Below, piece by piece: positions 61,095 to 63,812 of a stretch of 64,000 bases of DNA. The position numbers and the translations under genes are program-made. Numbering within the stretch: position 1 is the stretch's first letter; each line of letters begins with the position of its first letter. Below the pieces are notes generated by a model. It saw nothing but the letters and a program-made list of their open reading frames with translations, searched no databases and was not told where the DNA came from. This DNA is from Lachnospiraceae bacterium (GTDB lineage Bacteria > Bacillota > Clostridia > Lachnospirales > Lachnospiraceae): positions 127,036-191,035 of the forward strand of contig JAJBTQ010000033.1 of NCBI GenBank assembly GCA_020860755.1, read 5' to 3'.

Positions 61095-63812
61095 CTAATC
61101 TTCTTCCTGTTTTTTTTCTTTTAAGGCTTCCTCTACTGCCAGCAGCATTTCCCCGCTCCCTCCCATGGGGGCGGGGTCTTTGTATTCCTCCGCAAGTTCT
61201 TTTTTAAGCTTCTTGATCTCATAGATCAGATCCCGCGCGGACAATAGCCTGCAGCCTTCCCCGCGGATGATGATCTGTTCCAGCCCGTCTGATGTCGCCA
61301 CGGTGACATCGCTGTGCTTCGCATGGGTGTGGGCAAACTTCTCGATATACTGATCGGCAGTTTCCGCCTCCTTTGTAAACACCACGTGGATGTTATGGTA
61401 ATTCAAGGCCTCGGTCTGATGATCTTTGACGCGGTACGCGTCAAAGACTGCGATCAGGTTCATGCCGCGGATCCCCTGATAATTGCAGAGTTCATCCAAA
61501 AGCTTCCCCCGCGCCGCGTCCATATTGTCCCCGGCCAGTTCGGCCAGTTCCTCCCAGGCATAGATCACATTGTATCCGTCCACGAGGAGATATTCCTCGC
61601 GCGGTTTGTCCGTCCCAAATGTCCTGGTGACTGCCTCGATGGACTTCTGCCGTCCGGGATCGCCTGCGCTCTCATCCTTCCCGCCGCGGCTTAACTTCAC
61701 GACTCCGCTGCGTCCGGAACCTTTTTCTCCGCGGTTCGCCTGTGTAGCCTGCGCGAGGATTGCGTCCACCTCCTCGGTCCCGAGCCAACGCTCACTGACG
61801 CTGCGCGTTTTTACCTTTGCCGCTTCTGCCTCCTCCTCCAAAGAGAGGTGTTCGGATGTAAGCGGACTCTCCACATGCATGCAATCTTTCACCTCATCCC
61901 ACGGCACGATGTAGCCGGATCCGTTCGCGCAGAATACGGAATCCGGCGTGTGGTAGGTATCCGCCTCCGGGTCATAGCCCCTCGCCGCGATCACCTCATC
62001 CTCATTGTGACAAGCCTCATAGCCGCGAAGAGAAAAGGACAGACGCCCGAAGCCCTTCGTATATGCGCTGACTTCCCGCTTGTAGTCCTGCATACAGGAC
62101 ACCGGGGCATACCCCGTCAGAACGGTGTGATCCCCCTCTGTGACCGGCGGGTCAAAATGCCCGTTCATCTGCTCGATGTCGGTCATGGCCCGTCCCACCG
62201 CACTCTCCGGGATCTCCAGCCGGAAATTGTAATACGGCTCCAAGAGCCGGGACTCTGTCTCCATCAGGCCCTGCCGCACGGCGCGGTAGGTCGCCTGCCT
62301 GAAATCGCCGCCCACGGTGTGTTTCGGATGGGCGCGTCCCGCGATGACGGTGATCTTAAGATCCGTGACCGGCGAACCGGTCAGCACACCCCTGTGGGTG
62401 CGCTCCTCCAAATGAGTCAGGATCAATCTCTGCCAGTTTTTGTCGAGCACATCCTCGCTGCAGTCCGCCGCGAAGACAAGGCCGCTCCCGGGCGGCAGCG
62501 GCTCGAGCAGCAGATGCACTTCTGCATAGTGCCGAAGCGGCTCAAAATGTCCCACTCCCTCCACCGGCTCCGCGATCGTCTCCTTATACAGGATGTGGGG
62601 CGGACCGAAGTCCACGCGCACGCCGAATCTCTCCTCGATCAGGCTTTGTAAGATCTCGATCTGCACTTCCCCCATGACCTGTACCCGAATCTCCTGCAGC
62701 CGCTCGTCCCAGATAAGAGCGAGCTCCGGCTGTTCTTCCTCCAGCATCCGAAGCTTCGGGAGCATGGATCCGGCATCCGTTTCCTCCGGCAAAAGGATCT
62801 GCCGGCTAAGGACCGGCTCCAGCACAGGCGCCGCTCCCTCGGATTCGAAACCAAATCCCTGCCCGGGGTAGGTGCGCTTAGGGCCCGCGACCGCACAGAC
62901 TTCTCCCGCCGGGACCTCCTGCGGCGCATCGAATTTCTCCCCGTTATAGATCCGGATCTGGCTGACCTTTTCCTCAAAAAGTGTATCCCGTACCTTTAGA
63001 GAGCCGCCGGTGATCTTCAAATGCGTTAAGCGGACTCCCTTCGGGTCTCTCGTGATCTTGTATACTCTGGCGCCGAACTCATCGGGGTATACCTTTTGGA
63101 TCGTGTACTGATCAAGTCCGTCCAGAAATTCCGCGATTCCCGATCCCTTAAGAGCCGAGCCGAAGAAGCAGGGAAACAGCTCCCTCTTCCAGATCATATG
63201 CCGGATCCGCTCATCAGGCACCCGGCCGGATGTGAAGAACGTCTCCATCGCCTCCTCATCGCAGGCGGCGATCTCTTCCTGGCACACGGCGGATGAGACA
63301 TCCGAAAAGTCGACACAGCTTCCGTCCAAGCCCTCTTTTAAAGCTGCCATCAACCGCTCGCGGTCTGTCCCCGGCTGGTCCATCTTGTTGACAAACAAAA
63401 ACGCCGGTATGTTATAGCGCTTAAGCAGCTCCCAGAGAGTCTTTGTGTGTCCCTGCACGCCGTCCGCTCCGCTGATGACGAGCACCGCGTAGTCCAGCAC
63501 GCCGAGCGTCCGCTCCGTCTCAGCGGAAAAATCCACATGTCCCGGCGTGTCAAGAAGTGTCAGCCGCATATTTCCCCAGGTCATCTCTGCCTGTTTGGAA
63601 AAGATCGTGATCCCCCTCGCGCGCTCAAGCGCATGGGTGTCCAAAAACGCATCCCCATTGTCCACCCTGCCGGCTGTCCGGATCGTCCCTGACGTGTATA
63701 AAAGGCTCTCTGTCAGAGTTGTCTTTCCCGCGTCCACGTGCGCCAGAATGCCCGCCACGATGTGTTTTTGATCCTCTTTTCGTTTTTGATCCAGATCGTG
63801 TTGGCTTCCCAT
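61095..63812 (-). CDS. TetM-like ribosomal-protection translational GTPase fused to a C-terminal Rae1/YacP NYN endoribonuclease domain
   Basis: GTPase: HIVAGILAHVDAGKTTLTESLLYTSG, LLDTPGHVDFSAETERTLGVLDYAVLVISGADGVQGHT, FVNKMDQPG. C-terminus: YLLVDGYNVIYAWEEL...YQGIRGMNLIAVFDAYRVK...VVFTKEAETADQYIEKFA...VTVATSDGLEQIIIRGEGCRLLSARDLIYEI. Start MGSQHD at 63812. Confidence 0.93.
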   Translation of the reverse strand: MGSQHDLDQKRKEDQKHIVAGILAHVDAGKTTLTESLLYTSGTIRTAGRVDNGDAFLDTHALERARGITIFSKQAEMTWGNMRLTLLDTPGHVDFSAETERTLGVLDYAVLVISGADGVQGHTKTLWELLKRYNIPAFLFVNKMDQPGTDRERLMAALKEGLDGSCVDFSDVSSAVCQEEIAACDEEAMETFFTSGRVPDERIRHMIWKRELFPCFFGSALKGSGIAEFLDGLDQYTIQKVYPDEFGARVYKITRDPKGVRLTHLKITGGSLKVRDTLFEEKVSQIRIYNGEKFDAPQEVPAGEVCAVAGPKRTYPGQGFGFESEGAAPVLEPVLSRQILLPEETDAGSMLPKLRMLEEEQPELALIWDERLQEIRVQVMGEVQIEILQSLIEERFGVRVDFGPPHILYKETIAEPVEGVGHFEPLRHYAEVHLLLEPLPPGSGLVFAADCSEDVLDKNWQRLILTHLEERTHRGVLTGSPVTDLKITVIAGRAHPKHTVGGDFRQATYRAVRQGLMETESRLLEPYYNFRLEIPESAVGRAMTDIEQMNGHFDPPVTEGDHTVLTGYAPVSCMQDYKREVSAYTKGFGRLSFSLRGYEACHNEDEVIAARGYDPEADTYHTPDSVFCANGSGYIVPWDEVKDCMHVESPLTSEHLSLEEEAEAAKVKTRSVSERWLGTEEVDAILAQATQANRGEKGSGRSGVVKLSRGGKDESAGDPGRQKSIEAVTRTFGTDKPREEYLLVDGYNVIYAWEELAELAGDNMDAARGKLLDELCNYQGIRGMNLIAVFDAYRVKDHQTEALNYHNIHVVFTKEAETADQYIEKFAHTHAKHSDVTVATSDGLEQIIIRGEGCRLLSARDLIYEIKKLKKELAEEYKDPAPMGGSGEMLLAVEEALKEKKQEED

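Follow-up and report, generated by a model that had tools for sequence, protein, structure and literature searches.

A TetM-like GTPase fused to a Rae1-type nuclease in Lachnospiraceae: a candidate factor for stalled ribosomes rather than a tetracycline-resistance protein

We analyzed a stretch of 64,000 nucleotides from a Lachnospiraceae bacterium (contig JAJBTQ010000033.1 of GenBank assembly GCA_020860755.1), which we will call the window. Near one end of the window is a gene that was predicted, from the sequence alone, to encode a GTPase similar to the ribosome-protection protein TetM fused to the endoribonuclease Rae1 (YacP). The gene is a single unbroken open reading frame (ORF) with an ATG start and encodes 905 amino acids (Table 1); another in-frame ATG at 63848 would give a fusion protein of 917 amino acids. 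As the original prediction had proposed, we ran a domain search on the full protein, and Pfam reported GTP_EFTU (residues 16-237, 9e-52), EFG_III, EFG_IV, and EFG_C (to residue 604) above their cut-offs, as well as NYN_YacP (residues 742-879, 4.8e-48, 163.7 bits vs. a cut-off of 24.6). Domain II has a weak score in Pfam; taking Pfam, an alignment with TetM, and Foldseek together, the EF-G-like domains G and II-V are present. Foldseek placed the AlphaFold model with EF-G structures, while the best PDB matches of the whole protein were TetM (3j9y, 4e-74), then TetO and EF-G. For the C-terminal 174 amino acids, the best PDB match was YacP/Rae1 from Bacillus subtilis (5mq8/5mq9, 2e-26), with motifs that agree throughout, so both the fusion and the predicted set of Rae1 motifs are borne out. 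The predicted architecture of the N-terminal part also stands, but its predicted extent (about 700 amino acids) does not. In the AlphaFold model (built from 58 homologues; mean predicted local distance difference test or pLDDT of 78, predicted template-modelling score of 0.58), the GTPase is confident to about residue 652 and the NYN domain is confident as well, while residues from about 653 to 735 form a low-confidence linker.

Both halves of the protein look functional, as judged by conservation. The catalytic aspartates of the nuclease, on which the original prediction depended, are all retained: Asp745, 791, 820, and 842 are aspartate in 145 of 145 fusions and in 52 of 52 standalone proteins. 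The P-loop, G3, and G4 motifs of the GTPase are likewise conserved. Pairwise identities for the GTPase and NYN domains are correlated (r = 0.82, vs. a maximum of 0.29 under the null), so the two domains co-evolve. We also considered a chance or assembly fusion and ruled it out: we collected 145 copies, and some of these are from single-contig genomes.

A taxonomic survey, which had been suggested along with the prediction, showed that the fusion is a core gene and is nearly universal in the family. Among 150 genomes from the window's family (relatives named Lachnospiraceae), 137 encode a YacP domain, which is standalone in 8 genomes and fused in about 129 (86% of the sample; a few of these fusions are broken by contig ends). 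Nearly all of the genomes in the family have a single YacP domain. We found a second YacP match in four fusion genomes, and one of these (in G690) is a standalone gene. Across the class, 99 intact and 7 contig-broken fusions were present in 294 genomes (about a third), from many families. Roseburia, Anaerostipes, Eisenbergiella, Hungatella, and Eubacterium ramulus are among the named carriers. Genomes from outside the class generally encode Rae1 as a standalone protein. The split copies are few (L121, G119, G079, and G082) and reflect breaks between contigs or likely frameshifts. In L121, the GTPase (712 amino acids) and the NYN domain (214 amino acids) are adjacent separate ORFs, from either a recent fission or a frameshift error.

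Comparison with genomes that have standalone rae1 suggests where the nuclease came from. In all nine of the standalone loci that we compared, rae1 is immediately after rlmB, mostly within cysS-mrnC-rlmB-rae1-sigH; two genomes of the family (L135 and L224) have rae1 at other locations. The window contains this operon without rae1 at 50827-54122, and about 9 kb separates it from the fusion. None of the five fusion genomes that we examined (the window's and four others) has an NYN domain in the slot between rlmB and sigH. The window's genome has no YacP domain besides the fusion (the assembly is 79% complete, and the vacated slot itself is within the window). Given the empty slot, and the fusion as the sole carrier of a YacP domain, we conclude that the nuclease moved from its ancestral operon onto the GTPase, with loss of the old copy, so that the fusion replaces standalone rae1. 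The fused GTPases form one clade (99 by the Shimodaira-Hasegawa-like approximate likelihood ratio test), and the two "unfused" members within it are broken or split fusions, so the fusion apparently arose once in the GTPase tree. The fused NYN domains share a clade with standalone Rae1 from Lachnospirales (support of 98). Both trees are quick trees, and the NYN tree has few columns.

The fused nuclease thus resembles Rae1 of B. subtilis in its family, its motifs, its four aspartates, and in being present as one copy per genome. It differs in that Rae1 is a standalone protein of about 170 amino acids, ancestrally in the operon described above, a location that is typical without being strictly diagnostic, while here it is a C-terminal domain encoded elsewhere in the genome. 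This history also bears on a role in ribosome biogenesis, in which the GTPase would act on maturing ribosomes and the NYN domain would trim rRNA. A role for NYN_YacP in the maturation of rRNA or tRNA was the first proposal for this family, as cited by Atkinson 2015 (PMC4342817), and the ancestral operon includes mrnC (23S processing) and rlmB (23S methylation). But the nuclease has left that operon, and Rae1 from B. subtilis is described as an mRNA nuclease of the ribosomal A site (PMC6613710), so we consider rRNA processing to be quite unlikely.

TetM and TetO are the closest characterized relatives of the GTPase (about 30% identity, with the same five EF-G-like domains), and NCBI names several homologues as TetM/TetW/TetO/TetS family. 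However, the fusion protein scores just 422 bits against NCBIfam's tet_protect, which requires 775. In the GTPase tree, the fused proteins and their unfused relatives are set apart from the TetM types with full support, which, together with the sequence differences below, places the GTPase in a distinct clade that is not TetM. Fused and unfused members of the clade have a C-terminal module (residues 604-652) that is absent from TetM types. (L127, a truncated unfused member, carries a TET label, but only because another ORF contains its C-terminal module.) They also have common tips of domain IV (HFEPLRHYAEV and GrAHxKHTeGGDFR; the TetM counterpart is YYSPVSTPADFR). Loop III has the consensus HxKHTxGGDFR, without the proline of TetM (Pro509) that touches C1054 of the 16S rRNA (PMC8161019). 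Instead, Pro509 aligns with Lys497 of the fusion, and Lys497, His498, and Thr499 are invariant.

The differences in the tips, the module, and the score lower the probability of tetracycline resistance, while the changes in loop III would, by themselves, be compatible with protection. Loop III has the same length as in TetM, and TetM with the substitutions S508A/P509A/V510A is still active (PMC4750697), which keeps a resistance role alive. In such a role, the GTPase would expel tetracycline or another A-site drug, and the added RNase would clear mRNA from the blocked ribosomes, as in the view of Atkinson 2015. That study described YacP-NYN domains on Tet proteins from ten species of clostridia and raised the possibility of a resistance mechanism (PMC4342817), and our protein has the features of its "Tet" subfamily: a Tet-like translational GTPase with a C-terminal YacP-NYN domain, in Clostridia. 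But the gene is near-universal in the family, in a pattern that is not mobile, and at least two fusion genomes (G282 and G214) also encode a TetM-type protein. We therefore think that drug protection is unlikely. The original prediction had said that this is not simply a tetracycline-resistance protein, and the replacement of Pro509 by lysine, the separate clade, the core distribution, and the co-occurrence with TetM-type genes all support this.

The linker between the two domains is disordered, with pLDDT values of 30-50 for residues 666-735 and one predicted helix (residues 679-691). Across 150 fusions, linkers range from 60 to 133 residues (median 73). Of the 150 linkers, 135 contain a motif around EE[IV]DxIL, as compared to 3.6% of shuffled linkers. 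In the window's protein, this motif (EE[IV]DxIL / DEELxxIFERTYG) is at about residues 676-693 (positions ~61734-61787). Intact unfused GTPases of the clade all end just upstream of the motif, so the motif arrived with the fusion. It is probably a binding motif.

What might the fusion do? In B. subtilis, Rae1 is an endoribonuclease of the A site, and its loss suppresses a stalling defect (of efp; PMC6613710). Tet-type factors bind at the site for EF-G and reach the A site (PMC8161019). The architecture suggests not a tetracycline-resistance gene but an intrinsic factor that would locate stalled ribosomes and cleave the mRNA in them. On balance, we favor a housekeeping or constitutive role in ribosome surveillance and translation-coupled mRNA decay, and not mainly in resistance. 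The GTPase might recognize ribosomes whose A site is vacant or blocked; domain IV would enter the decoding center and leave after GTP hydrolysis. Tethering would keep the NYN domain at a very high local concentration, and this domain would enter the A site next and cut the mRNA as Rae1 does in B. subtilis. Trans-translation or quality control could then deal with the truncated complex, and the mRNA would be degraded. Recognition, withdrawal, and cleavage are all steps that we infer, while the domains, catalytic site, linker, origin, and replacement of rae1 come from the sequences themselves.

The sequential order of these steps departs from the original prediction, in which one polypeptide would simply deliver the nuclease to the A site. 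Domain IV of TetM or EF-G fills the A site, so the nuclease and the GTPase can hardly be there together, and simultaneous delivery is sterically doubtful. This leaves a sequential hand-off across the linker of about 80 residues, or action on separate ribosomes. By simple arithmetic, the linker has a contour length of above 250 Angstrom, which would be long enough in principle.

Some genomes encode the GTPase and Rae1 separately, and the link between the two seems to predate the fusion. Within the family, 6 of the 8 genomes with standalone rae1 have an unfused GTPase of the clade at another locus, as compared to 0 of 13 genomes that lack YacP (P = 0.0005, Fisher exact test). (These tests treat genomes as independent, so the significance is overstated.) Along with the steric problem, several findings weigh against a surveillance role for the fusion. 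The association is weaker across the class (15 of 21 vs. 74 of 167, P = 0.017). Six genomes of the class that lack YacP (L185, L186, L188, L192, L194, and L198) encode an unfused GTPase of the clade, so the GTPase can function independently of the nuclease and has a role of its own. Also, we found no conserved gene neighbor or operon partner of the fusion across the family, and no such neighbor ties it to ribosome rescue.

These YacP-less genomes, the presence of the two domains apart in relatives, and the long and disordered linker would fit with mere co-expression of two independent activities, with Rae1 acting as in B. subtilis while the GTPase does something else. But the conserved motif in the linker is specific to the fusion, and the fusion has been kept over many families with almost no fission. 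We consider co-expression alone to be rather unlikely. A more ambitious form of the surveillance role is that these proteins are an uncharacterized class of translational GTPases, neither EF-G nor TetM, that sense stalled ribosomes and hand the A site to the tethered nuclease in one GTP-controlled cycle. The fusion might then be the main mRNA-cleavage factor for stalled ribosomes in Lachnospiraceae, and elsewhere, the unfused GTPase might be the trans partner of standalone Rae1. We offer this larger proposal only tentatively.

The region upstream of the fusion gene in the window (63813-63990, minus strand) contains a long inverted repeat (63982-63921, -43 kcal/mol as RNA) with a promoter-like TATAAT in its loop (63948-63943). 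The right arm of the repeat includes the Shine-Dalgarno sequence (SD) for a possible leader ORF of 22 codons (63923-63855). A hairpin with a run of T (63839-63813) abuts the start codon of the fusion and contains its SD. This leader looks like leader-peptide or attenuation control and is not conserved across the family. It has no match in Rfam. We asked whether a regulatory hairpin at the start codon is shared throughout the family, but inverted repeats were not enriched over controls (P = 0.28, Mann-Whitney test), so the window's hairpin and leader ORF stand as an observation only. Another element, specific to certain lineages, lies upstream of the fusion in 14 genomes of the family. In this element, an inverted repeat has a promoter (TCGACt-N17-TATGAT) in its loop and the SD as its right arm. 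The arms vary in sequence between lineages with complementarity kept (CCTCCTCTTGTG/CACAAGAGGAGG and CCCTTTCTGTG/CACAGAAAGGG). About 30-150 nt downstream of the fusion in eight close relatives (L002, L003, L004, and five more), an ORF has an N-terminus that resembles Lon protease (by eye).

Table 1. Features of the fusion gene and of the operon that lacks rae1, with positions in the window
Feature	Position	Strand	Basis
Fusion gene	61095..63812	-	Single ORF; full-length homologues with the same domains
TetM/EF-G-type GTPase, residues 15-652 (G, II, III, IV, V, and clade-specific C-terminal module, residues 604-652)	61857..63770	-	Pfam, TetM alignment
Tip loop III of domain IV, GRAHPKHTVGGDFRQATYRA, residues 492-511	62280..62339	-	Alignment with TetM
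Disordered linker, residues 653-738, with conserved helix/motif WLGTEEVDAILAQATQAN (~676-693)	61599..61856	-	AlphaFold pLDDT, motif counts
NYN_YacP/Rae1 endoribonuclease domain, residues 739-880	61173..61598	-	Pfam, PDB 5mq8/5mq9, four Asp
sigH-like sigma factor	50827..51426	-	Overlaps rlmB by 4 bp, no rae1 between
rlmB, last gene ahead of the vacated rae1 slot	51423..52244	-	TIGR00186 (235 bits), ORF list
mrnC	52180-52683	-	Remainder of ancestral rae1 operon
cysS	52668-54122	-	Remainder of ancestral rae1 operon

The original prediction knew of no functional description of such a protein, and we too found no later functional work on the fusion in the open-licence literature. But the fusion itself was already published by Atkinson 2015 (PMC4342817), so the novelty is smaller than was claimed. 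The passages of that paper on Tet proteins describe the same architecture, treat the nuclease as an acquired domain in the context of resistance, and do not include a phylogeny of the fusion, the replacement of rae1, or a separate clade of GTPases. As far as we can tell, these last two findings are new, as are the near-universal extent and the linker motif.

More broadly, many proteins from gut anaerobes that are named as TetM/TetW/TetO/TetS family resistance proteins are probably not resistance genes. In most members of this family, which is a dominant one in the gut, Rae1 is covalently joined to an A-site GTPase and the standalone gene has been deleted, which points to a GTPase partner. Through the fusion, the question of how Rae1 gains access to the A site becomes directly testable.
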